DNA from: Bimastos eiseni
Taxonomy: Eukaryota; Annelida; Clitellata; Crassiclitellata; Lumbricidae
Direction: 5' to 3'
Length of the DNA: 64,000 bases
NCBI GenBank assembly: GCA_959347315.1
Contig: OY365819.1
Coordinates: forward strand, 18,577,119-18,641,118
Both the position numbers and the translations under genes were made by a program. Positions 18,201 to 50,644 of the stretch are shown piece by piece. Each line of letters starts with the position of its first letter. Position 1 is the stretch's first letter. Under the pieces are notes generated by a model. The model was not told the origin of the DNA and did no database searches. It worked only from the letters and a program-made list of their open reading frames with translations.

Positions 18201-21136
18201 CTTAATAAATACAACTGCTAGCACGCCTGTTATTCAGAAACCGAAAGCAATGTATTAATGCACCTCTTGCGTCATCATTTCTAGTGGTTATTAGGCAATT
18301 TGAGCTGCCTCCAGCCAGCTGAAGGGTTTCAAAACAATACCAACCATCTGGTCCTTTTTATATAGCCATAAAGAAACATAAATTTTTTAAATAAAATTCT
18401 TTTATTTAATTAAAATTGACCTTTATAGATGTAGTACATTCATAGAAGAATGCAATTAGACAAAAAACACAAAATCGAAATTTTTTTTCCAAATCACTTT
18501 AGGCCCTGTTTTCTCTTAAACTAGAACCGACGATCTGGTCCCTTTTCATGTAAACGTCCACTTATTTGTTTTAATTAAATGTGGCCTTATTTTAGTTTAA
18601 TATGCAAATGTTATGCACATTTAATATAGGTATTGGTTCTTCTTTGCTGCATGAACTAATTACAATATAAATACATTTAGTAATTTGAAACTATTCTGTT
18701 GTTAATCTTTAGGTGCACGTACTCAGTATGTAGATGTTCTTAGTGGTTCAAGTAAGCCCTCACCCGCGGCTCCAAGCAACCTGTTGAATTTACTGCCAAA
18801 GTCGGCCAGCATGCCACCAAATGTTTTCATTCCTAATGCACGAGGTTTGTCAAGAATATTCCTTCGCCATTTCCTTTTGCTGTTTTGTTACATATATGCA
18901 AATTTTATGGGCTAATTTATAAGATGGCTTTAACAAAGTTAACATTATTTTAATGATTGCCTGAGAGAGTGAAATGCATTGGGTGCTGTTTGAAACTCTG
19001 ATGGCTCTTACTCTTAAACTATTAAAATTGTCTGGATCTTTGCAGCGGCTGAAGAGGAAGAGAAAGCTAACCGAGTTAAAACGGAGGAGGTTGCAGCACC
19101 TGCAAGTTCCCCTGCAGCTGCTCACTGGCCTACAGGTCATGACCAGGGTGTGGACGTGAATGCGGTGCAACCCCCTGCTGCTGCACAGCCACAACTCCCA
19201 GCTGACAGGGCTGGCCCAACTCCTATGGTCTGTCGTTCTTTTATCATGTTGACCTTTCATTACTTCAGTGGTAGAAATTGGCTCTTATACAATGTACTTT
19301 AGCATAATTGTATGTTGGGCCTTCTTGTGTATCGGGCCATTCTCTGAGTAGGCTTTTAATCTGTATTGCAGGGTTGTCAAACCTTTTATGATGGCGGGCC
19401 AATAGCAATACATTCCAGCAAGTGGCGGGCCAGAGTGCCGAATGTGCATAAGGAAAATTGGGTACGGATCTCAGAGAGGGCCACACATAATGATGTTGAA
19501 TTATGTTTTGAAAACGTGATTCTGATATGCAATGTTATTTTGCTTCTCTGATTAATTTTACTTCAAGTTCTTGTTCAATTTGCTCTAATTGATTTTAATT
19601 CTAATTCTAGTTCTAAAAAAATTTACTTCTACTTCTTATTCACTTCTGTCTATGCCATTTTACTTATACTTCTCAAATAATTTTACTTCTACTTCAGTTT
19701 TTGTTTAAAATATCCCGTGTAAATGACAAATGTTCCGTTTTTCTCAATCTTTATGTTTAGCGCATATTGCATACACTTCTCTCAGTACTAATTAATGTAA
19801 TGTTTCTTTTAAGGTTTTATTCCAGTCCCAAATCGATTGTACAAGACTAACACAGTACAAGTGACAAACACTGTTAATTGGAACAGTCTATACTGTATCA
19901 CCAATCAATGATCTTGGAGTTCATTTTTAGAAATACTTGCATCTCCAGAGATTGCTTCATCCTATTTCTAAGACCAGTTGATAAAATCGTGGCTATTGAG
20001 AAAATTATCTCTACATAGGCCTGAGATGCTGGTGCAGAAACCAGGTCTTCAGCCAATGGGGATAGTTTGGGATAAATGCTGCTTCCACTGTTCCAAAATT
20101 TAAGAGAACTATGAACTGCTTCTTGCTGCTTAATGTCCTGCAAATATTTGTCATGTTCAAGACCAATGTTGCATTCTGACTGCGGCACTGTAGTGAAACC
20201 TTCATTTTGCTGCATTCTAGAGCTGAGAAACTTGTATTTCTTAAAGCTGGAAGTGCACACTCATTGGTGGTAGATGTTGATGTGGAAGGAATGGCACAAC
20301 ATGCTTGAGGAAGTTGAGGGTCTTGGCAATGTTTATTAAATTTCGTTCTGAAATTAATTTTACTTCTTATTCTTATTCACTTCGGGAGGTCTCCATTTCA
20401 CTTCTTATTCTATTCTAGTTCTTAAAATAATTTTTATTCTACTGAACAAGATTCAAGTAATTATTATTCTATTCGACTTCTAGTTCACGAATATATCACT
20501 GCTGATATGCATCATCAATTACAAATATTGAAGCATCACAGAAAACTCAGAAAGCTGTAGAAATGACAAATTAGACCTTCTATTCTCAATCGTGTTGTCT
20601 CTAAACAAGGCTCCACGCCGTCCAGACGTGCACGGGCCAGAAATGTATAGTCGGCGGGCCAGAAAAGCCGGCTCTTTGACACCCCTGCTGTAGTGTAATG
20701 GCTGTGTGGCACAGTGGCCGATTGCTTAGAGCAGTTGGCCTGTGACGCGAAGAGTACAGGTTCGATTCTCTTCCAAGGAGTCACTGTGTAGGGACCTTGA
20801 GCAAGTCCTTCTCAGGCGGTTGCTCCGCATTACAACTGCAATTGCACCATTGAGGTATGTGTGCACTTCTGAACCAATTGAAAGTTGCGGTTGTATCGTA
20901 CTCTCATGTCATGGTTTAAAACAGTTTTGTGATAATTTGCATGTTTATCTTCTTATGACTGCTGAACTTGAAAGGACTGTATATTTTGCTTTTTCTTGCA
21001 GATGGCCAACTCAATGGAAGCTCCTTCCTCGATGATGATGTTTAATCCATCCCAGTTCAACCAAAACTTATCGACCCCATCACAAGGTTCAAACTCTCAC
21101 TTGAAGTACGGCCAGCGTAGGATCTATCCGAAATAA
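893..21136 (+). CDS. SEC16A: SEC16, COPII ER-exit-site scaffold (3' part, 17 exons)
   Basis: SEC16 is a large peripheral protein that marks ER exit sites and organises COPII coat assembly through Sec13, Sec23/24 and Sar1. Exons read by eye: 893-1132, 2058-2155, 2877-2961, 3594-3711, 4891-5002, 5682-5841, 6205-6396, 6921-7110, 7777-7968, 10129-10286, 11913-12206, 14994-15137, 15635-15736, 16802-16991, 18713-18844, 19046-19227, 21002-21136. They total 2724 nt, stay in frame, and give 907 residues plus TAA. Exons 1-7 encode the central conserved (ACE1, Sec13-binding) domain, with [18 protein letters not shown] across the first junction and [15 protein letters not shown] later. Exons 8-11 are a Gln/Ser/Pro-rich linker. 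Exons 13-14 carry the conserved [17 protein letters not shown] block, and exon 15 has ARTQYVDVL. The C terminus GQRRIYPK resembles human GQRKRPVL. The N-terminal half is outside the window. Two donors (after 12206 and 19227) are GTCTG and weak, but phase fits both. The invertebrate orthologue is probably single-copy Sec16. Confidence 0.93.
1430..1790 (+). mobile_element. Non-LTR (L2/CR1-group) retrotransposon 3' fragment
   Basis: One frame gives the degenerate text [20 protein letters not shown], the usual end of L2/CR1-type reverse transcriptases (A.LWN.LP). It is followed by the tail GGTGCTATATAAATC, which recurs across the window. It lies in a SEC16 intron and is interrupted by stops. Confidence 0.5.
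3135..3390 (+). repeat. SINE family B copy
   Basis: This interspersed repeat of about 250 bp has a box-B-like GAGTTCGATTTC and the diagnostic stretch CAGTTAAATTCGACTCCTGT, followed by TTCATACT and TTTGTAATCATACTG. Other copies lie at 17650-17885, 29088-29330 (+), 11530-11830 and 33045-33275 (-). Confidence 0.65.
3800..4420 (-). mobile_element. L2/CR1-group LINE reverse-transcriptase remnant with 3' tail
   Basis: Read on the minus strand, the segment encodes, with frameshifts and stops, [14 protein letters not shown], then [37 protein letters not shown] and [16 protein letters not shown]. These are the C-terminal landmarks of L2/CR1-group reverse transcriptases. The minus-strand 3' end is GGGGCGCTATATAAATCC, the same tail seen at the ends of many SINE-like repeats here. 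It lies in the SEC16 intron after the exon ending at 3711 and is not functional. Confidence 0.7.
7515..7655. repeat. Dispersed repeat, copy 1
   Basis: A segment starting GCGTCAATCCCTCTGAGTGA and ending near CCCCCCTATCTGGATGCC recurs at 61490-61632 in the same orientation. The copies share the two ends and the middle CCCCTACCTGAAATTG. The family is not recognised. Confidence 0.6.
7699..7742. repeat. (GAAT)n microsatellite
   Basis: Tandem GAATGAAT units lie in the SEC16 intron just upstream of the exon starting at 7777. Confidence 0.9.
8030..8580. repeat. 32-bp tandem repeat in SEC16 intron
   Basis: About 17 copies of a 32-bp unit containing GTAGCTGAGTATGTGTCTGA follow each other. The left copies vary (GTGGCTGAGTAT, TGTATCTGTG) and the central copies look identical. 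The right edge is where the hAT element at 8594 inserted. Confidence 0.9.
8594..9550. mobile_element. Non-autonomous hAT element with 8-bp target duplication
   Basis: The ends are CAGGGCTGTTAA and its inverse TTAACAGCCCTG. They are flanked by a perfect 8-bp direct repeat GTATCTGT at 8586-8593 and 9551-9558. The subterminal regions hold many short palindromes such as GTATCGCGATAC. No transposase is encoded. A (TA)n tract lies inside at about 9261-9290. Confidence 0.88.
10430..11105. repeat. 36-bp minisatellite, 18 identical copies
   Basis: A 36-bp unit starting GGCAATGCTAATGATCC is repeated 18 times with no difference that I can see. A nineteenth, partial and diverged copy starts at 11078. 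It lies in the SEC16 intron between the exons ending at 10286 and starting at 11913. Because 36 is a multiple of 3 and the unit has no stop in several frames, long artificial open frames appear on both strands. The left flank (CCAGTCCCAAGCCTG) also occurs near 33304, so the array probably grew from a dispersed repeat. Confidence 0.95.
11530..11830 (-). repeat. SINE family B copy (inverted)
   Basis: Contains GAGTCGAATTTAACTG and the GGATGATGAC stretch, the reverse complement of the family core seen at 3135-3390. It is intronic in SEC16. Confidence 0.55.
13830..14100 (+). repeat. Possible tRNA-like SINE
   Basis: Starts with GTGCCAGTGGTTAGCATG (box-A-like), followed about 35 nt later by GGGGATTAAAATTCC (box-B-like). 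No second copy is clearly seen in the window, so the call is tentative. It is intronic in SEC16. Confidence 0.3.
14875..14938. repeat. Short tandem duplication in SEC16 intron
   Basis: GTAAAGACTG followed by TGTGGTTGCATTTTCATCA is present twice back to back, in the intron just before the exon at 14994. Confidence 0.75.
15923..16337. mobile_element. hAT-type MITE with 8-bp target duplication
   Basis: The left end is TAGGGCTGTACTGAATATTC and the right end, inverted, is TAAGGCTGTGCCGAATAGG. The flanking direct repeat GTTTTGAA is perfect at 15915-15922 and 16338-16345. The interior holds ATTCGGCCGAATA-like palindromes and no coding capacity. A partial relative (GGCTGTACCGAGCAATCGG) lies at about 15221-15290. 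Confidence 0.85.
17040..17400. repeat. Degenerate tandem repeat in SEC16 intron
   Basis: About nine imperfect units of roughly 35 bp built on GTGTAGAGTATTTTTAACTG and AAAAGCATTTTTATTG, directly after the exon ending at 16991. Confidence 0.8.
17650..17885 (+). repeat. SINE family B copy
   Basis: Same core as at 3135: AATTCGACTCCTGTAATGAC followed by TTCATACTGTACTTGTAATC. Intronic in SEC16. Confidence 0.6.
17978..18562. mobile_element. Inverted-repeat element of unknown class
   Basis: The 34-nt arm at 17978-18011 (GTGGACCTTTATGTGAAAAG...) is matched in reverse complement at 18529-18562 with only a few differences. It may be a MITE or the terminal part of a larger element. No target duplication was resolved. 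Confidence 0.5.
19369..20687 (-). mobile_element. hAT transposon remnant with transposase tail
   Basis: The left end CAGGGTTGTCAAACC and inverted right end CAGGGGTGTCAAAGAGCC are flanked by CTGTATTG (19361-19368) and CTGTAGTG (20688-20695), an 8-bp duplication with one change. The minus strand at 19898-20260 encodes the hAT C-terminal dimerisation region, with [34 protein letters not shown] and TGLRNRM. The rest of the transposase is missing, so it cannot move by itself. It lies in the last SEC16 intron. Confidence 0.85.
20699..20880 (+). repeat. tRNA-derived SINE family A copy
   Basis: Box A-like ATTGCTTAGAGCAGTTGG and box B GGTTCGATTCTC are followed by GACCTTGAGCAAGTCCTTCT and ACAACTGCAATTGCACC. 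It sits a few bases to the right of the hAT element. Relatives lie at 27750-27960 (-), 29855-30080, 30950-31095 and 50645-50880 (+). Confidence 0.75.
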
Positions 21137-33200: not shown

Positions 33201-35737
33201 GTAAACGTTATGGAAGTGGCTGGAATCGATCACGTTTCCTATTGTGTGTGTTACTCATTACTCTATGTCCCCAACTCCGCCACAGCTTGCAATCCGGCAG
33301 TGCCAGTCCCAAGCCTGAATAAAGTAGGAGGCTAACACTAATGATATCCATTAATTTAGAGCTGTACCGATATCGCTTCTTGCCGATTATGCCAATACCA
33401 ATTACTCATTTGCCGATACCGATTATTTAGCCAATTATTTCATTGTGTTTCCAAAAATGTGGTGTTCCAAAACATAGACCTACTGCTAATGCCTATTGTT
33501 GTGATACAAGCAAAACACTTGCTCCTTAGGAAACATGTACATGTAGTTGGGGACTAATCCTAGGCAGGCAATACAGATTAGACACACCAACCGCCGTCGA
33601 CCTTCCATGACGGAGGAGAGAAGAGAGATATCTATGTAACTGGACGCCTTCTTCTATCAAACATGCCAATGATGCCATTCCGTCCCAACTTTTACACCAT
33701 GCCACTTTGGCCTAAAATACCGGCCAGCAGAAATGACCTGTGCCCCTGGTAATTACTTCGACTCACTCTATGAGAAGGAAATGCTGTTCTTCACAGACCC
33801 AATGATGTTGCTGTCGTCATTTTGCATTTATAGACTGAAAATAATATTAAAAAATAAAAATGTTTAATATCGGCACCGATTATCTTGCTGATATCCGATA
33901 CCGCCGATATCTCTATAATCGGGGCCGATTATGAGTGCTGCTCTATCTGTTATGACACATTGTCGTTAAACTGAAACTACTTGAGATTCTCACCTCTCCG
34001 CTGACCGCAAGGCAGACGCTATGCATTCCCCCTGCACAGACTTGGACAGCGTCTTTGTCCATCTTAACCTCCCCTGGTTTTCCACGCTCCTGGACGTCCG
34101 GGCCAAGGCCAAGCTGACCGGTGTCACCCTGTCCGACCGTCAGAACGCCACCACCAGCAGTACGGTGTGATGAGTGAGAAACGACTGGAAGGTGAAGAGT
34201 TAAAGTGTTATTGCAAGGCATTTATATATCAAACAAAATAAAAAAGGTTGAATGTTATTCATATTGGATTTATAATATATTAAGTTAAATATAGTCAAAA
34301 CAAAACTAAGTTATACATATTAAGGTATACATATTCAGAGCAAAATTAAGTTATACATATTCATATTCAGAGCAAAATTAAGGTACACATATTCATAACA
34401 AAACTAAGTTATATAAGACTCATCCAAATTTATTACACTTAGTTCAAGCAAGAATGTAAACAGTGAGAGTTAAATGATTGTTAAATTTCAGCATTTCATA
34501 AACTGCTTTCTCTAATAACATTATGAGCTCAGGATTTAAAACATTTCCTAACTTTCACAAAGGAACTTTAGGACTTCACACAAAAGCTTTACTTCTCTTT
34601 ACTTTACACGTTGAGAGCACCTCTAAATAGTGATTAAGTGAGAGGCGCAATATATATCTAAACATGTGATATGATGCGGATGTCATAGTGCTATAAATAC
34701 CAGTCAAGTTTACCTGAAACCACACGAGCCTTCTTTTTCGGAGGCTCCTCTTCAGTTGCGTTGTCATCCACTGCGCCATGAGCACTTTGGGCATTTTTTG
34801 CACCTTTAGTGGAAGCTTTCGTTTTAGAATCCTTCTTGTCAACTGCGACATCCGATTTTGTCTTGGTGTTTTTAGATGTTTCTTCGCCAATCTCATCAGT
34901 TTTCACTGGCTCTGCTTTCTTCGTCTGTTCTTCAACAGCTTTGGTAGTTTCTGAACCTTTTTTAGCACCTTTTGCAGTTGCTTTACTTGCCGTCTCCTCT
35001 GTATTTTTATCGGCTTTCATCGATTCCGTTTCGGATTCAACATCCTTGTTCTTCTGGTCTTTACCAGACTTGGCCTTCTCTGCATCTTTTCTGGCACCCT
35101 TTGCTTTTGACTCCTGTTTATCTGCAGCTGTGCCTCCTGTTTTATCTTTTCCCTCTGCATCCTCTGTGTCTTTCTCAGTCTTCCCTTTCTGTGCGGCTCT
35201 TCCACGCTTTGTGGTCTTTACCTCTTCAGCAACTCCATCACCAGATGATGACGCTTTCTCACTGGACATTTCTGAATCTTTGTCAGTCTCTCCCACATTC
35301 TTCTTTGCAGCCACTTTCCTACCCCTCTGAATTTTAGTCGCTGCTGATTCTTTTACCAGTTGTGTTTCCTGTGCGCCATTTTCACTGCTCTGGTCTTCGG
35401 AATCAGCTGCAGATCCCTTAGCTTGCTTACTCTTCTTGGATTTGCTGTCCTTCTCTGTGATATCTTCACTTTCTTTCTGATCTGCTTTACGCTTTCTGCC
35501 GTTGATTTTCTTGTCGGACATCTCTTCTATTGGTTCCTCCATATCTTCCTCTATATTTGATTCCTTTTCAGCTCTTCCTGATTTTTTTTCTGTTGTTTTC
35601 ATTGCAGCTTTATTTCGTGTGTCTCGCTTTGCTGATGGTTGCTTGGCAGTTTCCTTGTTAATTATTTCTTCACTATTTTCTGCTGCTGATTTTTCTTCTT
35701 TGTTCGCTTGCTTTCCTCCTTTCTTTAGATTTACCAT
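27210..35737 (-). CDS. RCC1: RCC1, Ran guanine-nucleotide exchange factor (complete)
   Basis: RCC1 is the chromatin-bound exchange factor that loads GTP on Ran in the nucleus, driving nuclear transport and spindle assembly. Coding exons from the start: 35737-34714, 34184-33994, 32872-32693, 32084-31937, 31660-31589, 30755-30609, 29482-29366, 28863-28702, 28200-28092, 27273-27210. The sum is 2214 nt in frame, 737 residues plus TGA. Residues 1 to about 340 are Lys/Glu/Ala/Ser-rich, ending in the basic signal PPKKKARV. The rest is the seven-bladed propeller with [59 protein letters not shown] and [10 protein letters not shown]. The Asp in CDHLV and the His in GQHHT match positions important for catalysis in the human protein. 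The start ATG has a good context (AAACATGG), with a likely 5' UTR splice acceptor at 35747-35746. Similarity to human RCC1 continues along the propeller. The N-terminal tail is much longer than the short human tail. Confidence 0.94.
27750..27960 (-). repeat. tRNA-derived SINE family A copy
   Basis: The minus strand shows GGCCGATCGGTTAGAG (box A), GGTTCGACCCTCGTCC (box B) and GAAGAAGGACGGTATCAAAT at the 3' end. It lies in the last RCC1 intron. Confidence 0.8.
29088..29330 (+). repeat. SINE family B copy
   Basis: GAGGGCCGTGGAGTAATGGA begins the copy; the core GTTAAATTCGACTAC and TTCATACTATGTCGGTAATC follow. It is in an RCC1 intron, antisense to the gene. Confidence 0.65.
29855..30080 (+). repeat. 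tRNA-derived SINE family A copy
   Basis: GGCCAATCAGTTAGAGCGG, then GGTTCGACCCTCGTCC, GTACAACTGCAATTGCACC and GAAGAAGGGCGGTATCAAAT. This is a well-preserved copy in an RCC1 intron. Confidence 0.85.
30950..31095 (+). repeat. tRNA-derived SINE family A, degenerate copy
   Basis: GCGATCGGTTAGAGCAGG, GGTTGAATCCTCTTCCGAGG, ACAATTGCTCTG and GGCAATATCAAA are recognisable, with deletions. Confidence 0.6.
31325..31510 (+). mobile_element. L2/CR1-group LINE 3' end fragment
   Basis: One frame reads [15 protein letters not shown], the classic C-terminal FKKHLKTHLF-type end of L2/CR1-group reverse transcriptases. It is followed by the tail GGTGCTCTATATAAGTGCTC. It is intronic in RCC1. Confidence 0.6.
31663..31832. 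repeat. Two short tandem duplications in RCC1 intron
   Basis: ACAGAAACAATTTATATAGC is duplicated in tandem just upstream (minus-strand sense) of the exon at 31589-31660. TCAACTTCTGTCCAATC is duplicated at about 31770-31830. Confidence 0.8.
33045..33350 (-). repeat. SINE family B copy plus linked repeat
   Basis: GGAGTCGAATTTAACTGTAT marks the inverted family B core. The right part (CTATTGTGTGTGTTACTC, then CCAGTCCCAAGCCTG) also occurs near 30555-30600 and at the left flank of the 36-bp minisatellite near 10405. Confidence 0.6.
33356..33945. mobile_element. Probable hAT-type MITE in RCC1 intron
   Basis: The left end TAGAGCTGTACCGATATCGC and inverted right end TAGAGCAGCACTCATAATCG are related. 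The subterminal regions contain repeated CCGATTAT, CCGATATC and GATACCG. I could not find a matching 8-bp duplication, so the boundaries are approximate. Confidence 0.6.
34265..34420. repeat. AT-rich tandem repeat in RCC1 intron 1
   Basis: Four or so degenerate units contain CAAAACTAAGTTATACATAT or AGCAAAATTAAG. Confidence 0.75.
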
Positions 35738-37600
35738 GTTTGTTTCTTTTACAAAAAACATTAATAAAAACATTAAAACACATATACACAACACTTATAC
35801 TTGTAAATGCAATGCACAATTAGTATCAATCATAAAATCACAAAATAAACAATGGTAACAATGGTAATAGACTTTTTTAAAGTCTATTATAAAAAAGTTC
35901 TTGTTATTTGTCTAATTTAAAAAAACTGCCCAATACTCAATCGCAATTGGAGAGTATAGGACTAATATCATAAGTGAAAGCATTTAACCTTTATTTCCTA
36001 GCAGTATCAAGGACCTAATCAGCATAAAAGAATATACTGTTCTATGCCAATGAAATTGTGATCCATATTGTCAATGATGCATTTTGATAAAGTTTTTATT
36101 AAATAGCAACCAGCTCTTAAATATTTCTGTCCATCAAACAACGTGCATAAACTGATCCACAGTTGCTACGAAATTAAAGCAATCTCAGTGTTACATTCAA
36201 CGCAATAATCGTAAACTCGTGATATTGCAGGAATTTAAGTAACTAGAATCCACAAACTGTGTTTGTAAAGTGCAAACATGCAACTATAACGATGCAATTT
36301 ACATATCCCACCGCGGGAAAATAAATCTGCAACCGTCGTCTCTGATCATCACTCAGTATTAAAACTATACGTCATCAGTGATTAAAAAAGAGCATCGCAA
36401 TTGCGAACCTGGTACTGTATGATATAGAAACGCAAAAAGTGCCAAAGACCGCACTTTACGTACAAAATGTTCACTTTTAAAAGCACTTCGCCACACACAA
36501 TATTCCAACTAAAAGAACCTAAAATTGAAAACCATATCCTTCCGAAGATCATAAAAGTCTCAACTTAGAATTTCCGCTTTTTGAAATACCGGTTCCCTAC
36601 TTCGTCCATCGATTTATATCATACGCTCGCCTCGTTATGCTCACGTATAATTCAGATAAAATCGTAGCGCTATACGCCACCACCATAGTATTTATAACTT
36701 AAAGCTTCATCGTATATCCGTTTTATCGTATATCCGTTTTATCATATATCCGTTTATTGAGAAAATATAGCTGGCAGAACGTAGCTATTTACATATACAA
36801 TATACAACCTAAGAGTTAAATCACTGAAATTAGTTCACCAAATGACTGAGTCAATGTGCATTATTGGAAAAAACATTGCAGTGAAATTCCAGAGTCGGAT
36901 CTTGGACTAACATAAATTCAGTTCACCACAGAAAGCACTGAAAGTTCAAATAGCAAACGGCCTACTGAGGAACGTGAATTTATAAAAATATGAATTTTTA
37001 GTTGAGACCTGAAAGATGAATTTACCGGAAGCGATAGGACAAGCAATCATGGCCCTGTATTGTATTTAGGTATTTCAAACGCATCGCTCTATTGCAAGCA
37101 AAACTTGATATAATCATCGGCATTCCCTGCGCGAATTAATAGTTCCACGAGAAAATTCTTAAGACTGCGAACCGTCAGCAATGCCCAAGTCAACATGATG
37201 GCATATACTCCTTTTACTTTTCATTAACGATCGACTTAAGTCCTGCTCAATGTTTATAGCACAGTATATGCCTATTGACCGCTATTTTGCTGCTGAGTGC
37301 GGACGCCAATATCTTTGCCTCTCACAAATTTTACGATAGATTAGGTCTATTTAGTCTGATGAACATCATGAACCAAGAACTCTAACATGGTAGTGATTTG
37401 TTTAACAGGAATTAATAATTAAGCCTATCTCGAAATGTCAAGAAAGGAAACAACATCCATTCAGGCATTAACACCGCACCGTAAACAACAACTCCTTCTA
37501 TCAGTAGACTATTACTGGTGCAGGCCAAGTGGGCCTACTATAACTTAAATGAACACACGCTAACAGGACAACAGAGACGAATAAACCGATCCACCGCCAC
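35738..37600 (-). other. RCC1 5' flank (5' UTR exon and promoter expected here)
   Basis: The polypyrimidine-AG just upstream of the RCC1 ATG suggests a non-coding first exon farther right on the plus-strand axis. Somewhat GC-richer sequence lies at 36.3-36.7 kb, but I could not fix a transcription start. Repeated TATATCCGTTTTATC units occur at about 36712-36752. No other gene is seen. Confidence 0.4.
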
Positions 37601-40599: not shown

Positions 40600-41800
40600 A
40601 GATCCCAACCTTTTCCGAGTTGCAACCCCCTTTTATAATCGTCGATTTACCTTCGACCCCGCCACGCTCGTATGTCATAGGACCTAGGTCAAGGACGACT
40701 TCAATGACAGATAGAGAAAACACAACCGAAACTAATTATTCGGAATATCGAAACTGAAACTTCATGGAAAGTAAACACGCATTTTCCAATTTCAAGACAA
40801 TCTTCAATTCTTTTATATCCAAGCTGCAAACCAAATATCGCAACCAAATAGGCCTATTTTAATAATTTCTTTCATTTCCATTATTGAGATGGTTGTACTT
40901 TCAAAATCCGTGACCGAATTTGTGTTCACAAACCTCATATCATTCTCAACATTAAGTATGTTCTTGCCTTCAATTTGATATGAAGACGATTTGAAAGTCC
41001 ACCTCTCCAGAGGTAGACTATGTGCACAGGAGGCAAGTGGAACAAAAGTCGAAAGGCAAGCGTGGCGACATTTCGACATAATTATGACTGATACAAGGCA
41101 GTAGGCACACCAGAATGGAGGCAATAATTTCTCACGAAACAAATTACGCGCCAAAGAATCGTTGCGCATATCCAAGAATTCATTATGTACTTCGTCGGGA
41201 ATGATGGCATCATGGCTACATTCATGGAAACAGATAATGCAGAGTTTTTCAAACATGGCAATGTTTAAAAGATTTGCTTTCCCATGCCAGTTTGCAGCTT
41301 GGATATAAAAGCCTGAAGGTTGTCTTGAAATTGGAGAATGTGTGTTTACTTTCCATGAAGTTTTAGATTAAGCTGCTAAATAAGCAAATCTTTTCTTCGA
41401 AACTATATCGTTCAAGTAATCCATAAGGTCATGCTTCCCTAGCACTTCAAGGAATTACTTGATTTCACCTCTCAACTCAAAAACACGATTGACAGCATTT
41501 CCTTTGCACAACCAGCGAACAGTGTTCTGTGCAGGCGTCAGTTCCAACAGAATCGGATAACAGACTATAGACGTTACACGCAGTTACTTGCAGTCACCGT
41601 AACAAAGTTAGTAGTCCTGGATAACCAGGATGGAACTTCATTCAAGACAGTAAAATTACACTGGATATACTGGACAAAAGGGTTATAAGCGAAAAGCATT
41701 TGAAAACCTTCGTGCTTAAGTTTTTAAAGATATTTTGGCTAATTTCAACAAGTCACAGCGACCCCCTTAAGGGTCGCGACCCCAGGTTGGGAAAAAAGTG
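40600..41800 (-). pseudogene. Dead hAT (ZBED5/SCAND3-like) transposase
   Basis: Read on the minus strand, 41440-41600 gives, with stops, NTVRWLCKGNAVNRVFELRG, a hallmark of ZBED5/FAM200/SCAND3-type hAT transposases. The 40813-41256 segment gives LFREKLLPPFWCAYC and later ENDMRF, as in their C-terminal domain. The conserved CESGFS-like box is damaged. End sequences TCCCAACCTTTTCC near 40609 and, inverted, TCCCAACCTGGGGTCGCG near 41797 look like degenerate terminal repeats. An internal inverted repeat of about 80 nt links 40757-40835 and 41287-41365. It is not functional. Confidence 0.7.
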
Positions 41801-42146
41801 TCTAAAGATCAAAATGTAATCACACAGCAACGACGGTTATGCATAAATAATAGTTTGAACACAAAACATCTTCAACAACAGATCATCTTTGTAAGCACAT
41901 TCAATATTATTTACGACAACGCTCGGTTACACAAATAAATTCGTATCAAATTATTCAGAGTATCAAAAGTCCCGTTGCAAGGTCAGACGGACTTGATTGG
42001 TACATCACTGGACCACTGGCAGCTGTGACGATATACTCGCAATGTTGTTCTTTTCGTCATAAACCAATCTCCTAAGGAAAAACAAACTGAAATATACCAG
42101 ACATCTCACCTTGTCACAGTGCAAGCAACACCAATTTGATCGATAA

Positions 42147-42220
42147 AATCACTCAGACAACTGTATCTCTTCATATATTCAGAGAGATTCCCATTGTACT
42201 GCACAATCATCATCGTGATT
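42147..42220 (-). ncRNA. SNORD79-like box C/D snoRNA, copy 3
   Basis: C box ATGATGA, guide ATGGGAATCTCT with D' CTGA, C'-like ATGAAGA, D box CTGA, stem AATCAC/GTGATT perfect. This is the last snoRNA that I can find in the host gene. Confidence 0.88.
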
Positions 42221-42419
42221 ATTTGAGTCAATTATGGAAAAAATATTTCGAAACATCTTGTAAAATAGACTTGACAACATCGCATGGCATTAGTCACCAT
42301 TCACATTTTATGCAAGAGAGACATTTACAGGATGTATAATTTCTAGTCGTTACTCCAATGTTACAGCCCCTCAGATAATAACTGTACCTCTGCTAGTCAT
42401 CTCACACAAGAATATCTAA

Positions 42420-42475
42420 GTGGTTGATTTCATCAACAAAAAGCAATCAAGAGTAGCAAATATTGACGAACACAA
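42420..42475 (-). pseudogene. Degenerate SNORD76-like copy
   Basis: The guide ATATTTGCTACTCTTGATTG is intact on the minus strand, but no proper C box precedes it and no clear D box or closing stem follows. Most likely a decayed duplicate. Confidence 0.45.
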
Positions 42476-42863
42476 AAGAGTTGTGTGAAAAGGTCAAATT
42501 GAACTGCAAAGTAACATTTAAATCATATTTTTAAAATTTATTTAAAACGCCTCTTCAACACAACAAACCATAGCAACTCATGCGAGTCACTTCCAATACT
42601 TAGATAGCCCTTGTCCTTTTATATTTGTTCTACTTTGCTGGCTATTATTCAGAACAGCACGATTGCATATAATAACAGATATATTATCAACTCAAAAAAG
42701 CTCATTTTGCATCGTTAATGACATTTTAGCTTTTACTTAAAACTCAATTTCCCAAAGTATTTTGTTTCTAGAGTACAAGTCGAAGACCTATTTTGCCGTC
42801 CTGAAATTTCTCGACTTATAGTAAAGTATATACGTTAGTTTATTATTCAATTACGTAAGACTA

Positions 42864-42936
42864 CCATCTCAGATGATTTTGGTGGTTGAGTTTTGTCATA
42901 TAGACAATCAAGAGTAGCAAATAGTATCATTGACGG
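42864..42936 (-). ncRNA. SNORD76-like box C/D snoRNA, copy 3
   Basis: Guide CTATTTGCTACTC with D'-like TTGA, exactly as in vertebrate SNORD76. D box CTGA; C box AATGATA is slightly degenerate. The stem CCGTC/GATGG includes one G-T pair. The segment before the D box differs from the other SNORD76-like copies. Confidence 0.78.
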
Positions 42937-43304
42937 CCAATACTAACGCCGTCTATTACTTATTCCTGCAATTTTTACAGAAATGTTTGCAGAGAGAAAA
43001 ACTTACTTTTAAACGGAAATTATCGTTATGAAACAGCATGAATGGCCATCAAAATACTTTAAACACAAGCATCATTTGATGAGAACATAAAACATGCTTT
43101 CTAGTAATCTAAGCCAATCTACATTAAACAACAAAATTAAGTAAACAACATAAAGTTAAGTTAAATACATACCATAAACGTAAAATTTATTCCTCTTGTT
43201 CTATTGCTGTGGATTCATGTTTCACACGCAATCTATAATGGAAGTCAACATTATAATTCAACACTTATACCAATTTCAACACAAAACTAAACTTCAGCAG
43301 CCAG

Positions 43305-43376
43305 CATCATTCAGTTATCTTTGTGACTTCAGTGCATCAGAGAGATTCCCAATGTATCTGTACAATCATCATAATG
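43305..43376 (-). ncRNA. SNORD79-like box C/D snoRNA, copy 2
   Basis: C box ATGATGA, guide ATTGGGAATCTCT, perfect D' CTGA, D box CTGA, and stem CATTAT/ATGATG. An acceptor (CTTCCATTATAG) lies 71 nt past its 3' end, followed by a 60-nt exon at 43232-43173 with donor GTATGT. Confidence 0.88.
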
Positions 43377-43780
43377 AACCTAGACTGCCAATTTAATTAA
43401 GTCTATGCAGGTAAATCCTATGTATTAGTCACAAAAGCAAAGTTGTGATGCAAACAAATTAAATATAGAATACTAAAAGAGCTATAAAAGTCAGAAAAAA
43501 TCTACATTTGTGACAAGTTCCATGATACAAGTCAATAGACTGACTTTTATTTTACAATTATTCACCAATGCCAAACAATTTAAACTGAAAACTTCGCTTA
43601 ATCCGTACTTTTGTAATCACTCTCCTGCTTTTCGTTACATGATGCCATGCAGAACTACGACAACTGTAACATATCCAGATGTATCTGAAATAAAAATAAA
43701 CTGAAATTCTCACACCATCCTACATTTACATAACAGACAAAATAATTCAACATTCAATCATACCATTTTCTGCAATTTCA

Positions 43781-43862
43781 TGTCATTGCTTCAGTGTATA
43801 GAAATTTAATCAATGAAAATTCATTTGTCCTTATCTATACCGATTCACCATTGGTAATGACA
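43781..43862 (-). ncRNA. SNORD74-like snoRNA, diverged copy
   Basis: The stem TGTCATT/AATGACA and D box CTGA are intact. The C box is degenerate (ATGGTGA) and the guide reads GATAAGGACA, one change from the other copies. It may be decaying or retargeted. An acceptor TTTATTTTTATTTCAG follows 95 nt downstream. Confidence 0.65.
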
Positions 43863-44540
43863 GTTGCAGCATAAATGACCCAACCAAACAGCAATGACCA
43901 TTAAGCACAGCAGCAATATCTAATGGCACAACAGTAAAATGGCTAAAATCGCTTCTGTGTAATTAACCTATTTCTGTATAAATTAATAAACCTCAATTGT
44001 GCAGTATCTGTTTATTGTGACGGCTAGTAATTAATTGTCTCTAAGGTGCAGAATTCTTATTTACATATAGAGCAAATATGCCTAAGGTTAGATGTACATC
44101 TAATTTCTTATAGGTTTTAACTATGTCTTGTTAAAGTCAATCACTTCTAAAATAAATGCACAAAATCTGGATTTATAGTTCTAAATCATCCTAACTTAAA
44201 TAATACATGTATGACAAAGGATAAAATGTATAAATTTGAGGGGATCATGTCCTACTCTGGGGGATTTTGTCCCGGGATTGTTGTATCCATCTACCAGTAA
44301 AATGTACCCTTTGATTTGAAAAAATGTCTATACACATCAGTCACTGCCAAAACCACATGAAGTCTGGCAAGCCGTAGTTTGCTTCTACTCTCAAATGATG
44401 CATCAAGATGCAGAAAAATCATGCATAAGAAATGAACTAATATATCATGCACACTACAACAACAAACTTTGAACAGCAATATAAACACAGAAATTAACGA
44501 ATTGTCTATCCATAAATTTCTGCAAAGTAGAATTAGCTAA

Positions 44541-44618
44541 GCAGTCATTCAGTATCCGTTCCCTAATCAGAGTTTCATAGAGATTCCCAATGTATTGTAC
44601 AATCATCATAACGACTGC
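44541..44618 (-). ncRNA. SNORD79-like box C/D snoRNA, copy 1
   Basis: C box ATGATGA, guide ATTGGGAATCTCT followed by D' ATGA, D box CTGA. The stem GCAGTCGTT/AATGACTGC has nine pairs including one G-T. The guide pairs with the 28S stretch GAGATTCCC and addresses its last A, as for SNORD79. A good acceptor (TTTGTTGTTGTAG) follows at 44455-44454. Confidence 0.87.
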
Positions 44619-45056
44619 AGACTTCAATTAGTAATTTAACGATTAAAAAATTTTTTAATGATTAATCATAAGACCATTTGTGTCATTATACAAGGTGTCC
44701 AACCATCGTAGCCTGTGTGTTTAATGGAAGCTATTTGAAATGAAAACATAAACAAAACCAACAATATGGACCAATAAATGAGTAATTGCTAACTAGCAGC
44801 AAATATAAATAACTAAATTGAAAGATAATCGATGAGCAATGTTAACTTTGCATGGGCACGTTAATCTAGGTTGTGGAAGTTAATGACGAAATAAATGTCA
44901 ATTCTTACATAGCTAACCATTAAGCAAAATAGTTAGTCTTCCAATTGTTTGCCATCATAATTTAGCACAAGTGTACACACAAAAAACTATATTAAGCTGA
45001 TAAACTTCAATAAAGCTTTTATTTCAGACAATCAAATTATCGACACCACAACTTAC

Positions 45057-45138
45057 AAAAGTCTTGCGTTTCATATGCACAGTTTGATAGATAGTGGCCA
45101 CGTGACAGGCTCCACTTATCTTGCTTGTACGCACACGC
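45057..45138 (-). ncRNA. Host-gene exon (duplicated exon, copy 2)
   Basis: Minus strand: acceptor GACATTGTAG, an 82-nt exon, and a consensus donor GTAAGT at 45056-45051. It is related in sequence to the exon at 45774-45858. Confidence 0.7.
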
Positions 45139-45255
45139 CTACAATGTCAACAAACTGTTTATCATAAACATTAAGAAGTTAATTTGCACCACCAAAATGA
45201 AAATTCAAAAAATTATGAAGAGGATCTTGCAAGAGTGTCATCAATAGTTTTAAAA

Positions 45256-45339
45256 AAGCTGTCTCAGAACCAGTTTGGTTAATTTTCGTCATCTACACAA
45301 TAAAGAGTAGCAAATATATATCAACATCATTGACAGCTT
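45256..45339 (-). ncRNA. SNORD76-like box C/D snoRNA, copy 2
   Basis: C box AATGATGT, guide ATATTTGCTACTC, D box CTGA, and an eight-pair stem AAGCTGTC/GACAGCTT. Between the guide and the D box it is almost identical to the copy at 45970. Confidence 0.87.
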
Positions 45340-45600
45340 TCTTAAAGCAAATTGCTAGATTTAGAACCTGTAATATGGTCTTGATAAATTTCCATAGACA
45401 ACAATTTAAATCACATGACCTCATCTATATTCATGATAATCGCTAAAAACCATTTAGACTACGTCTGTATTTTACCTATAAAGTAATACTTCAATTTAAA
45501 TTTGTTAAGTTGTAAGTGATTATTCCAAAAAGTAATTTAGTTTTATTAAACAGCATCAATGTGATATGACTTTAAAAGTTTTCATTAAACTTTTGATTAA

Positions 45601-45679
45601 CCATTACCTCAGCGTATAGAATTATAATCAAGTGATATTTCATATGTCCCTATCTATACTGAATCATCATCGGTAATGG
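45601..45679 (-). ncRNA. SNORD74-like box C/D snoRNA, copy 3
   Basis: C box ATGATGA, guide GATAGGGACAT, D' box ATGA, D box CTGA. The stem CCATTACC/GGTAATGG is eight perfect pairs. Confidence 0.87.
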
Positions 45680-45773
45680 CATTTTCAGCTGATGAACTCA
45701 AGTGCAATAAAAGTTTTTAATACAGATATCTTCTGTAAATAAAGACAATTAAATAATTTAAACCACAACCTAC

Positions 45774-45858
45774 AAAAGTTTCATTCTCATCTCCACAGTT
45801 CAGTAGATAATAGCCACTTGAAGGGCTTCGCTTGTTCTAGTTTTACATCCATCCACAT
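45774..45858 (-). ncRNA. Host-gene exon (duplicated exon, copy 1)
   Basis: Minus strand: acceptor GGATATTGTAG, 85-nt exon, donor GTAGGT. The exon and its flanks are clearly related to 45057-45138: AAACAGTTTG upstream, a shared TGGCTATTATCTA/TGGCCACTATCTA motif, and a CTTTTGTA.GTTGTGG donor region. No conserved frame. Confidence 0.65.
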
Positions 45859-45969
45859 CTACAATATCCGCAAACTGTTTAAAATAAGCAGTTAAAAATG
45901 AATTTAGAGATACTTATTTACAAAATTACAAAGAATGAACAAAATAACAGACATCAATACTTTTCAAAT

Positions 45970-46051
45970 AGCTGTCTCAGAACCAGTTTGGTTAATTTTC
46001 GTCATCTACACAATAAAGAGTAGCAAATATGTATCAACATCATTGACAGCT
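45970..46051 (-). ncRNA. SNORD76-like box C/D snoRNA, copy 1
   Basis: C box AATGATGT, guide ATATTTGCTACTC with D'-like TTTA, C' box near AGATGACG, D box CTGA. The terminal stem AGCTGTC/GACAGCT is perfect. Vertebrate SNORD76 carries the same TTTGCTACTCTT core. The nearest downstream splice acceptor is at 45860-45859. Confidence 0.85.
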
Positions 46052-46357
46052 TTCTTCAAACAAATTACTACTTTTTAGAATCTGCATTTAAAACATTTCC
46101 ACAGTAAACAAAGATATCCATTGAAATCACATGATCTCATCTAAATTCATGACAATCACTTAAAACCATTTCCAACATTGTTTGAAACTGCATTTTAACT
46201 ATAACTTTCTACTTCAAGCTCAACAAAAACGTATACATTAGACAGATTATTAAGAAAATGAAAGTTAACTTAAAATATCATCATTAAGAAACCGCCTTAG
46301 CACAAGTCATGATACCGGTAGTTTAAAATGTAGATTTTTTCATTAAACTTTTGATTA

Positions 46358-46438
46358 GCCATTACCTCAGTGTATAGAATTATAATCAAGTGAAATTTCA
46401 TATGTCCCTATCTATACTGAATCATCATCGGTAATGGC
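46358..46438 (-). ncRNA. SNORD74-like box C/D snoRNA, copy 2
   Basis: C box ATGATGA, guide GATAGGGACAT, D' box ATGA (changed from CTGA), D box CTGA. The stem GCCATTACC/GGTAATGGC is nine perfect pairs. It is nearly identical to the copy at 45601. Confidence 0.87.
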
Positions 46439-46825
46439 ATTTTCAGCTCAGTTAAAACAAACATATTCACATAAATTGTGAGGCAGTCATTAAAATTTTT
46501 TAAAAGAAATGCAGCATATACAGCTATCTACCAAATACATGATACAATTATAAATTTGGTAATCACGAAGAATACGTGCCGTTCTAGTAAACAATATGGT
46601 CCCCTGAATGCACTAAGAATATATCTTTCTTAACTTCAAGCTACATCCCACAATGCAATGCAATCAAGAAGCTCAGTCATTATCACGACTTAGTTTAACA
46701 AGAGATTGACTGAATGTCTCCAAAACCAAGAAGAATGTTCTTATGGTATCACAAACTAATTAAACAAATAAGTTTATGGCGACAAGTAGGTTCTGGAAGA
46801 CCTATGTTGAATTAAAAAAACAGTT

Positions 46826-46906
46826 GTCATTTTACCTCAGTGTATAGAATCTAAATCAAGAAAATCAGATGTCCCTATCTATACTGAATCATCATTGACA
46901 AATGAC
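46826..46906 (-). ncRNA. SNORD74-like box C/D snoRNA, copy 1
   Basis: Minus strand: C box ATGATGA, guide GATAGGGACAT directly before a perfect D' box CTGA, and D box CTGA. The terminal stem is GTCATTT/AAATGAC. The guide matches the 28S stretch TGTCCCTA, placing methylation on the first C of TCCC by the D'+5 rule, as for vertebrate SNORD74. A splice acceptor follows about 70 nt downstream at 46757-46756. Confidence 0.85.
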
Positions 46907-47083
46907 ATTATGTTTTTGAATTACTTTTTCTGTTGAAAATATTAAAATTGCACCAGCAATTGAAATGCAACTTTCTGAAATAAAATTGCATCTTAAATAC
47001 ACTTACACATCCTTCTTTGGCTATTCTTTCGTGATGTCACAGCATTGTTTCGGGACCCTGATGGAACACTTCCAACAGTCAGC

Positions 47084-48836
47084 CTGTTTAACAGTTACTA
47101 GATGCGAAATCCTGAATGACACACGTGCATAGTTCCACCCTTCATCATAGTGAAGGGACCAAGTTGATTCAAACTGTCAACAACATATTAGTTAACAGTT
47201 TACTAAATGCATTCCATCCGGTTATATAGAAAGAATATACCAACTACACTCAAGCACATGTATGCTTGCTCATAGAAACAAATTTTCAAGAAAAATAGGC
47301 AAAAATCCCATTATGGCTGCATAAAACTGGGCAACTTTGTCAAAACTTCAAGGTACTGGAACTTTTAAAAATGTAGCTCACAATGGCATTACTTGATTTT
47401 CAAGTACAGTTAAATTATTCAAAAAATAATATATCCATCGCTTTAAAACCATAAACTTGTAATCTCCCATACGGCTCAAAAAGTAACGCTTTCGAATGCC
47501 AGCTAGGAGCATAATCATACAAGACAATTCGGTGAGCTAGGTTAGTGTCGGCATTCAAATCTATGGCACCCTCCGCACAACACGCTTGGCTAAATAGCAA
47601 ACCTAAACACCAACTATTAAGTGTTTGCAAACTTTATGTCATCGTCATTCATCGAGTCTACTTAAACATTTACAACAGCAATCTGGTCTTAAATGCGGAC
47701 CAGTCACGCAATCCTGTCCTGGATCCTACGCTTCGCTTTCTAAATGCGCCATGTGCACATTCTCCATCACGCTCATTTTGCACCCAATCTTTTGCTCCCA
47801 TTCTTTGCTTTTGTCATTGGGATAACCCAAATTAATGCTAGAACGACGTGATGTGATGAGGAAACCTGCATTATCGATGTAAGGTTTTACAGTGCAATAA
47901 AAAAAACATTAAGCCACCCCTGAACACAATCTATCGTACACTGCGATATAATAATACTTTACTTGATAGCACATGGTCACACTACCAGTCACAAAAATGT
48001 CATGCTAAAGCTATACATGGTGATAAAATCAATATAAACGAGAAGCACCCATTACAGACTTATTCAATTTAACAGATATTGTGCAGAAAAGCGTGAAAAA
48101 ACAGCAGCACCTTGTACTTTGAAGGCCACATAACCGCTAACAACCGCCTCTGAAACAACTGGCAATGGAAAGACTAGATATTCTTGCGGAAGGACTTGCT
48201 CTCGTGCAATTCTCCCTCACGCGAACGAGAACAGCGCGAGCGTATGGTGAGCTAAGAATAGGTTTAACAGAAGAAATGCCTGTCAAGCGGGCACTTGTTA
48301 ATCATATATCCGGGAATGCTGGGATATAGTGGTGGACAGTTACTGCAATAATATTACAGCGAACGCGCACACAAAGCTGATAGATTCATAAAGTGTAATT
48401 AAAAGGAGTAACATTTATCCTGTTGATATTAATGAGTTACTTAAATAATAACGTTATGCTTTTACCTGTCTTATCTTATCTGAATGCCTTGACCTATGGT
48501 GAACTCTGTTCCACAATGTAAATCTTTTGCTTATCTGAATGATTTGGTAGCAACTGCATAATTACATATCTCCTATATCTTAAATAATTGCCAACCTTCC
48601 TTCTCAGTTTCCTCATATCAGCAGGTCCGCCATTGTCCATGAATGGATCGCTGACATCTGGATCTGTCCGCGGACTTCACATAAAGTTCGCTGGGGTAAA
48701 GCGGCTTTGCAACTTTAGACCTCCTGTGGGAAATCATGACAGCATGATAATCGTTGTTTTATAACATTCAGACTGACAGACAGCAATATGATTACAAATA
48801 CAGTATGAGCGGATTATCGCAAATAAATCAGCTTAC
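47084..48836 (-). other. 5' introns of the host gene
   Basis: No box C/D RNA was found between the first exon and the exon at 47007-47083. A possible exon at about 48598-48718 (minus strand) lies between GATTTCCCACAG and a GTTGGC donor. Its end can be read MDNGGPADMRKLRRK, but the frame is blocked upstream. Otherwise nothing is recognisable. Confidence 0.35.
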
Positions 48837-48910
48837 GCAAAGCGAATTTTACTATACGGCAGTCACGCAAGGCGCTCAACACGTCCGACATCTTAATTAT
48901 TTAAGAAAAG
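48837..48910 (-). promoter_or_regulatory. 5'TOP-like start and first exon of the snoRNA host gene
   Basis: On the minus strand, CTTTTCTTAAATAATT starts at 48910, the C-plus-pyrimidines pattern of terminal-oligopyrimidine transcripts. A donor GTAAGC follows at 48836-48831, making a 74-nt first exon. It contains a short frame starting MSDVLSALRD that does not continue clearly, so I treat it as non-coding. The start site is a prediction. Confidence 0.5.
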
Positions 48911-50202: not shown

Positions 50203-50243
50203 CACTGATCTCTGTGGGTGATGATCACCCACAGAGATCAGTG
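50203..50243. repeat. 41-nt near-perfect palindrome
   Basis: Two 20-nt arms, CACTGATCTCTGTGGGTGAT and its exact reverse complement, are separated by one base (50223). It lies inside a modest open frame of unknown meaning. Confidence 0.9.
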
Positions 50244-50644
50244 AATTTGTATTGCATTGCAGTTTCACATCATCAGATTCTCATGCTCCCTGCCTCATCA
50301 ACTGAGTCCGCGACAGCCTCTGCAGCCAAAAGAAAGCGGATGATGACTTTATATGGATGCTATCATCTCGCGGTCGAGTTCGGGTGATGAAAGTGGGTTG
50401 TAGCCATATTTGAAATATAGTTGCGATATATAAAATCGTTCAACGTCAGGTTAAACAGATTCGATCACCCGACGTTTTTCAACCTCAAACGATTTTACGA
50501 TCAGGTTCATCGCAAAGTCCACTAAACGATGCTATGATAAGTTACTTGAAACACAGGGGTCCTTTTCATCCAAAGCTATTGCGAAATAGTTTATCAAATG
50601 ACATTTCCCCGCTTAAACTCAAACGATAGATCGCCATTACTTGT

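Follow-up and report, generated by a model that had tools for sequence, protein, structure and literature searches.

A SNORD74/76/79-type box C/D snoRNA array in an annelid suggests that the GAS5 grouping is older than vertebrates

Introduction

How old is the grouping of small nucleolar RNAs carried by GAS5, a gene whose long RNA attracts interest for its links to growth arrest and tumours? Vertebrates host SNORD24 in RPL7A, and in the chicken table SNORD74, SNORD76 and SNORD79 are co-located in a gas5-like host (CR387333), in introns 1, 3 and 9. The question is raised by a locus of the annelid Bimastos eiseni, lying within a 64,000-nt stretch of contig OY365819.1 (the window), for which a first-pass annotation had proposed a GAS5-like snoRNA host gene. 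The literature matches listed, in the extracts available, contain neither an invertebrate GAS5 nor a tracing of GAS5 beyond vertebrates. Our explanation, which we consider probable as a whole, is that of an annelid SNORD74/76/79-type array carried on one transcript and supplying 28S methylation guides, the trio having probably been linked in the bilaterian ancestor.

A three-family array on one strand

The minus strand between 46909 and 42145 bears eleven snoRNA copies in three families (Table 1): ten genes with the C box, CTGA D box and terminal stem of box C/D RNAs, and one copy that has decayed. A scan for sites combining a C box with at most two mismatches, the guide word of one of the families and a correctly spaced CTGA returned nine sites, 9/9 of them on the minus strand of this locus; shuffling the window 300 times with its dinucleotides approximately preserved gave a mean of 0.24 and a maximum of 2. 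The array is real, and the number of copies, the common strand and the three families given by the first-pass annotation stand; its description of all ten as well formed was generous, as the C box is damaged in 76c (AUGAUAC) and 74d (AUGGUGA), leaving sound C and D boxes in 8/10. The C box is exact in 6/10 copies (in 74a it lies at 46895, with the D box at 46840) and reads AUGAUGU, a form also present in the Rfam SNORD24 consensus, in 2/10.

Terminal stems share one register in 9/10 copies, with 9 bp in 74b, only 4 bp in 79b and a break beside the boxes in 74d, and random re-pairing of the flanks equalled or exceeded the true pairing in 2/3000 trials. Single-copy folding is weak evidence for the array, with z below -1 in 6/10 copies, below -2 in 3/10 (74b, -4.16) and above 0 in 2/10. 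A looser scan, for which a C box, a D box and 11 nt matching any part of 28S sufficed, gave no clear separation between the window and its shuffles (8 distinct C boxes, 5 of them array copies, vs a shuffle mean of 3.6 and maximum of 9). Boxes and stem alone gave 16 rows, 9 being array copies (100 shuffles: mean 6.9, maximum 15), and added no C/D candidate to the array copies in 42-49 kb.

Two copies escape the strict scan. One altered guide base hides 74d from the guide-word search; repeat comparison groups it with the other 74 copies (84% to the family D4 reference), and the 74 profiles match it as well, though it was itself among the sequences used to build them. Near 76d the box scan finds neither a C box nor a D box; models built without this copy match it (E 9.5e-6 and 8.3e-7). 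Profile searches of 204 kb revealed no additional copies apart from two fragments of family 79, both short and weak (E 0.0045 and 0.0077), and a putative SNORD74 remnant at 42770-42650 was discarded when the profile search did not find it. Separately, Rfam searches of 9/17 viral contigs drawn from pattern scans yielded no snoRNA.

Between the two copies of the duplicated 74-76 unit the snoRNAs are 97% identical, the flanks 44-70% and the candidate exon 69%, implying that constraint or conversion acts on the snoRNAs. The non-snoRNA element between 74b and 76a keeps weak AG and GT candidates in both copies. The array would have grown by tandem duplication and lost copies by box decay.

Table 1. 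Features of the array and of the related SNORD24 locus (window positions unless a contig is given)
Feature	Position	Strand	Description
74a	46832..46909	-	SNORD74-type box C/D snoRNA; guide TAGATAGGGACA before D' CUGA; predicted site C3820
74b	46357..46442	-	SNORD74-type snoRNA; D' AUGA
74c	45599..45684	-	SNORD74-type snoRNA; tandem copy of 74b, 97% identical
74d	43782..43865	-	SNORD74-type copy; C box damaged (ATGGTGA); one guide mismatch
76a	45967..46052	-	SNORD76-type snoRNA (U24/U76 family); guide ATATTTGCTACT; D' position UUUA; predicted site A2350
76b	45254..45339	-	SNORD76-type snoRNA; tandem copy of 76a; Rfam SNORD24 41.9 bits
76c	42864..42938	-	SNORD76-type snoRNA; D' UUGA; C box ATGATAC with two mismatches; SNORD24 41.2 bits
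76d	42398..42468	-	Decayed copy of SNORD76 type; guide retained, both boxes (C and D) lost
79a	44542..44621	-	SNORD79-type snoRNA; guide TGGGAATCTC; D' AUGA; predicted site A3809; Rfam SNORD79 38.5 bits (cut-off 47)
79b	43303..43385	-	SNORD79-type snoRNA; D' CUGA; SNORD79 37.3 bits (cut-off 47)
79c	42145..42223	-	SNORD79-type snoRNA; D' CUGA; SNORD79 45.5 bits (cut-off 47)
74-76 unit	45140..46450	-	Tandem duplication; unit about 713-758 nt
Element between 74b and 76a	46109..46171	-	Non-snoRNA; 89% identical to twin 45455-45393; possible exon
Candidate last-exon start	42062..42071	-	Predicted 3' splice site, 78 nt beyond 79c; score 8.8
Proposed 5'TOP-like start	48881..48910	-	Word at 48910 only
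SNORD24 genes, same genome	C7:6449302-6449378 and C7:6451556-6451630		Two canonical genes on another contig, with both SNORD24 sites

Guides and predicted 28S sites

Counting five bases up from D' gives, in human numbering, the predicted 28S sites A2350 for family 76, A3809 for family 79 and C3820 for family 74; the chicken table assigns these sites to U76, U79 and U74. The guides pair with a eukaryotic 28S (L002) over 10-12 nt upstream of D' (12 in 74a and 76a, 10 in family 79, with one mismatch in 74d), and the stretch holding A3809 and C3820 is identical in rRNA fragments from symbiont bins of the annelid Escarpia. Site spacing, read by eye, also follows the chicken table, with the 79 and 74 sites 11 apart and the U24 C, U76 A and U24 C at 0, +12 and +14. 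The earlier recognition of SNORD79, SNORD76 and SNORD74 guides is thereby borne out, canonical SNORD24 being separate on another contig (C7). Each snoRNA, of which the array has three or four copies per type, would be bound by C/D proteins at its C/D kink-turn; the guide upstream of D' would then pair with 28S rRNA and place fibrillarin for the predicted 2'-O-methylation of C3820, A2350 or A3809.

Rfam models recover this only in part. At gathering thresholds just three copies are named, all as SNORD24. All three family-79 copies fall below the SNORD79 cut-off (RF00152; best 45.5 vs 47 bits), though their predicted site is A3809, and at E<=0.001 a search of the genome matches SNORD79 in 79c alone. 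Family 74, with its predicted C3820 site, reaches at best a snoMe28S-Cm2645 row (74a, 33.2 bits vs a cut-off of 48), from the same Rfam clan as SNORD79. Over 41-50.5 kb neither SNORD74 (RF00284) nor SNORD76 appeared at E<=10, in an output that left out five overlapping same-clan rows.

Shared ancestry with GAS5 or independent assembly

As in chicken GAS5, SNORD74, SNORD76 and SNORD79 occur together without a long reading frame, and the unit 74c-76b-79a repeats the 74-76-79 order of introns 1, 3 and 9. The last part of the array departs from that order, 79b preceding 76c, and where chicken GAS5 holds nine families the annelid array holds three, with many tandem copies. A fourth GAS5 family, a SNORD80/snR60-type RNA, lies outside the array, on C7 beside U24 and U14; hence the GAS5 set is split in this genome, and arrays here mix families. 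Within 41-50.5 kb, Rfam listed none of the other GAS5 families (75, 44, 78, 80, 47 and 81) at E<=10, weak evidence as the same search missed SNORD74.

These differences leave appreciable room, short of an even chance, for independent assembly, whereby annelids built mixed multi-copy arrays by duplication and transposition and brought three GAS5 families together by chance or through 74/79 kinship. The C7 array combines U14, U24 and SNORD80/snR60 types, which have three different chicken hosts, the shared clan of SNORD79 and the Cm2645 family points to such kinship, and snoRNA mobility is described as ongoing in a 44-genome survey (PMC3511168). Against this, three random families would share any one chicken host with a chance of 86/91881 = 9.4e-4, a figure uncorrected for selection and derived from host counts made by eye from the chicken table, and, as a control for host persistence, SNORD36 sits within RPL7A in this genome, the arrangement also seen in chicken. 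Multi-copy snoRNA clusters are also found in Drosophila (Uhg1-8 and the tandemly duplicated mfl), for which the accessible portions of two reports mention no GAS5 trio (PMC1821038, PMC13228274).

Of the first-pass alternatives, that co-hosting predates vertebrates or was rebuilt independently, the older date is plausible from the trio statistic, and is tempered by SNORD80/snR60 on C7, the absence of other GAS5 families from the Rfam and box-and-stem scans of the array and the uninformative exon and TOP signals. On balance we lean towards common ancestry of the array and GAS5. We slightly favour the view that the bilaterian ancestor already had the 74/76/79 trio linked, and that the trio has survived in vertebrates within GAS5. 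By the same narrow preference, GAS5 would then derive from an equally old snoRNA array in which the payload lasted longer than the exons, with annelids and vertebrates later gaining or losing the remainder.

The host transcript

The proposed transcript spans about 49 kb to 42 kb and would be cut into single snoRNAs by splicing or exonuclease trimming; its transcription, splicing and non-coding nature we infer. Minus-strand skew (T>A, G>C) across the locus is compatible with transcription. The short exons of a GAS5 plan found no support, since splice-site strength between snoRNAs does not exceed that of shuffles (93.3 vs a mean of 97.5; 141/200 as good). The proposed 5'TOP-like start likewise loses its force: the word is present, but such words are common (15 in 3.6 kb, and 5.2 per kb over the whole window). 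Exons and TOP start are accordingly proposals in the array, unlike in vertebrate GAS5.

It is conceivable, if rather unlikely, that a protein-coding gene carries the array in its introns or in a 3' extension, or that the array is driven by promoters of its own, instead of belonging to a GAS5-like non-coding gene. Fly dUhg6 was eventually recognised as belonging to mfl, a coding gene (PMC1821038), and the exon signals here are weak; yet the minus strand has no reading frame of at least 110 aa between 41.4 and 54.2 kb, 0/10 minus-strand frames tested at 44.3-60.0 kb match Pfam, and the candidate exon of the duplicated unit differs between its copies with indels.

SNORD76 and its SNORD24 relatives

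The middle family passes the Rfam cut-off as SNORD24 (76a at 41.8 bits), and shares with the two C7 SNORD24 genes membership of the U24/U76 superfamily and a 28S region. The C7 genes, however, stand in a separate array with U14 and SNORD80-like RNAs, and carry a guide ending in D' CUGA phased to C2352 (TTTGCTAT before CTGA) and a second to C2338 (CTAGATCT before CTGA; one mismatch to L002 28S), whereas 76c has GCTACTC before TTGA, phased to A2350, and the second guide is degenerate in the array copies. D' UUGA is common to 76c and human SNORD76, and 76c shares TATTTGCTACTCTTGA with a human SNORD76 primer, the letters matching over 16 nt; the D' of 76a and 76b (UUUA) is degenerate. Because canonical SNORD24 sits on C7 and the array copies are phased for A2350, we reject SNORD24 as the family name: judged by guide and phasing, the middle family is SNORD76-type. 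That it is SNORD24 after all, so that the array matches RPL7A and GAS5 families and no GAS5 trio, is very improbable: three copies lie 0.2-0.9 bits above the SNORD24 cut-off while the C7 genes, with both U24 sites, rank 12 bits higher on that model, and the remnant of a second U24 guide kept in 76c has a similar counterpart, AACCACCA, in human SNORD76.

Implications

The SNORD24 label shows how automatic naming can mask the relevant paralogue. The GAS5 trio in an annelid array suggests a grouping older than vertebrates, and, with three GAS5 families and the U24/U76 pair in one annelid genome, the age of the GAS5 payload becomes testable in a few animal genomes.

Content of the array and its genomic setting

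The annelid array of SNORD74-, SNORD76- and SNORD79-type box C/D snoRNAs is genuine. The first-pass annotation had listed ten copies and one relic on a single strand, and a guide-specific test bears this out on the minus strand, with nine complete sites against a mean of 0.24 and a maximum of 2 in 300 shuffles. The relic 76d is recovered with models built without it, and 74d is detected as a repeat. Terminal stems lie in the same register in 9 of 10 copies (offsets 1,0 in eight; 2,1, on the same diagonal, in 76b), and shuffled pairings reach the true stem-pairing sum in 2 of 3000, with 74d, entered into this test at coordinates off by one to two bases, scoring 0. The 204 kb searched hold no further copies, bar two short, weak family-79 fragments (E 0.0045 and 0.0077).

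The array contains a tandem duplication of a 74-76 unit. Over aligned columns, identity between the two units is 97% in the snoRNAs, 69% in the candidate exon, 70% in the inter-snoRNA stretch and 44-62% in the other flanks. A non-snoRNA element, 89% identical between the units, may be an exon or some other element.

The source genome comprises 118 contigs (660,451,143 bases), with the window at C14, 18577119-18641118. Pfam identifies an innexin gene at the window end, whose relatives with species names, among 120 listed of 580, are annelids (Lamellibrachia, 74%; Hirudo, 73%; Helobdella, Dimorphilus and Capitella) except the orthonectid Intoshia.

Features of the window and of the loci compared with it
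Feature	Location	Strand	Remarks
snoRNA array	46909-42145	-	74a, 74b, 76a, 74c, 76b, 79a, 74d, 79b, 76c, 76d (relic), 79c, in transcript order
Element of tandem units	46171-46109; 45455-45393	-	
hAT transposase remnant	40816-41367	-	a relative of this frame bears Dimer_Tnp_hAT
hAT transposase remnant	19898-20260	-	Pfam Dimer_Tnp_hAT
Tandem repeat	10422-11150		one frame, coding units of 12 protein letters; minisatellite-like
Inverted repeat	50203-50244		arms ~20 nt, loop almost absent
367-aa open frame	34691-35794	-	lysine-rich, downstream of array; no Pfam match
RPL7A	L037:5629-8949	+	same contig, ~83 kb from array
C7 snoRNA array	L049:8026-9784; L050:47-1480	-	40 kb of C7 scanned

Predicted rRNA targets

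Against the 28S of L002, a eukaryotic contaminant contig in a bacterial bin (Rfam LSU_rRNA_eukarya match), pairing spans 12 nt in family 74 (74a-c), 11-12 nt in family 76 and 10 nt in family 79. Five bases upstream of D', the guides give predicted sites at C3820, A2350 and A3809, respectively. In human numbering, the other U24, U76 and U79 sites are A2350, A3809, C2338 and C2352, and against human 28S letters family 79 pairs over 11 nt. The spacing of the predicted sites agrees with that in the chicken table (U24, C2112 and C2126; U76, A2124; U79, A3319; U74, C3330), and PMC3542256 prints C3820 for U74.

The A3809/C3820 stretch is identical in rRNA fragments from bins of symbionts of the annelid Escarpia (L001, L003 and L005). 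These contigs and L004, also from a bacterial bin, end within about a base of the same 28S word, and none has an LSU match over cut-off; they may be the host animal's rDNA insertion elements.

Identity of the middle family

Rfam names three family-76 copies SNORD24, at 41.2-41.9 bits (cut-off 41). A genome-wide search, in which 59 of 341,931 first-look candidates were scored, found two better SNORD24 genes on C7, another contig of this genome (53.8 and 53.6 bits); in control genomes, matches at E<=10 occurred in 11 of 14 and over cut-off in 0 of 14. The C7 genes carry TTTGCTAT followed by D' CUGA, and a second guide that has AGATCT as its end ahead of CUGA, with one mismatch to the L002 28S; these are the guides for both U24 sites. 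Both arrangements are missing from the array copies, for which we reject a SNORD24 identity, and 76c shares TATTTGCTACTCTTGA with human SNORD76 primers (PMC5390076). Therefore, two paralogues coexist in this annelid, as U24 and U76 do in chicken.

The host transcript

The GAS5-like host gene initially proposed stands in its payload of families 74, 76 and 79; its short exons and 5'TOP start gain no support. No minus-strand frame of 110 aa occurs between 41.4 and 54.2 kb, and ten minus-strand frames tested lack Pfam matches. Between snoRNAs, the best exon chains reach a score of 93.3, compared with 97.5 in shuffles, of which 141 of 200 are as good; thus, the exons of the array are unproven. The 3.6-kb stretch surrounding the proposed start contains 15 TOP-like words; such words are common throughout (5.2 per kb across the window) and lend no weight to the 5'TOP claim. 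The minus strand is skewed along the locus (T>A 0.081, G>C 0.145), which would fit transcription from it; similar or higher values occur in other segments. Two of the SNORD36 copies in RPL7A sit between one exon frame and the next, so a one-snoRNA-per-intron rule need not apply to the array.

Co-hosting and ancestry

In the chicken table, the gas5-like host carries 9 of 83 C/D families. Three random families would share any chicken host with a probability of 86/91881 = 9.4e-4, from host counts made by eye and uncorrected for the reader's choice of window or possible kinship of 74 and 79.

RPL7A, recognised by one exon matching L7a at 1.9e-30 and by eye in its remaining exons, serves as a control. 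It holds four SNORD36 copies over cut-off plus a fifth, weak one (23.7 bits at L037:7046), and the chicken table has RPL7A as SNORD36 host too. SNORD24 was not found in this genome's RPL7A gene; hence, an ancient link between a snoRNA and its host can be either kept or lost.

The C7 array speaks against the GAS5 reading. Besides its two SNORD24 genes, it holds seven SNORD14-like copies (53-57 bits, below the cut-off of 64), a SNORD80/snR60-type RNA (44.5 bits, cut-off 41) that also matches ceN111 (46.3 bits, cut-off 43), and a second ceN111 match below cut-off (37.2 bits). Thus, families whose hosts differ in chicken occur together in one array, and one GAS5 family lies outside the 74/76/79 array; both are counter-evidence.

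The payload of the annelid array, then, is GAS5-like, while its status as a GAS5-like gene is unproven. On the statistical argument alone, we consider it more probable than not that GAS5 and the annelid array share ancestry.
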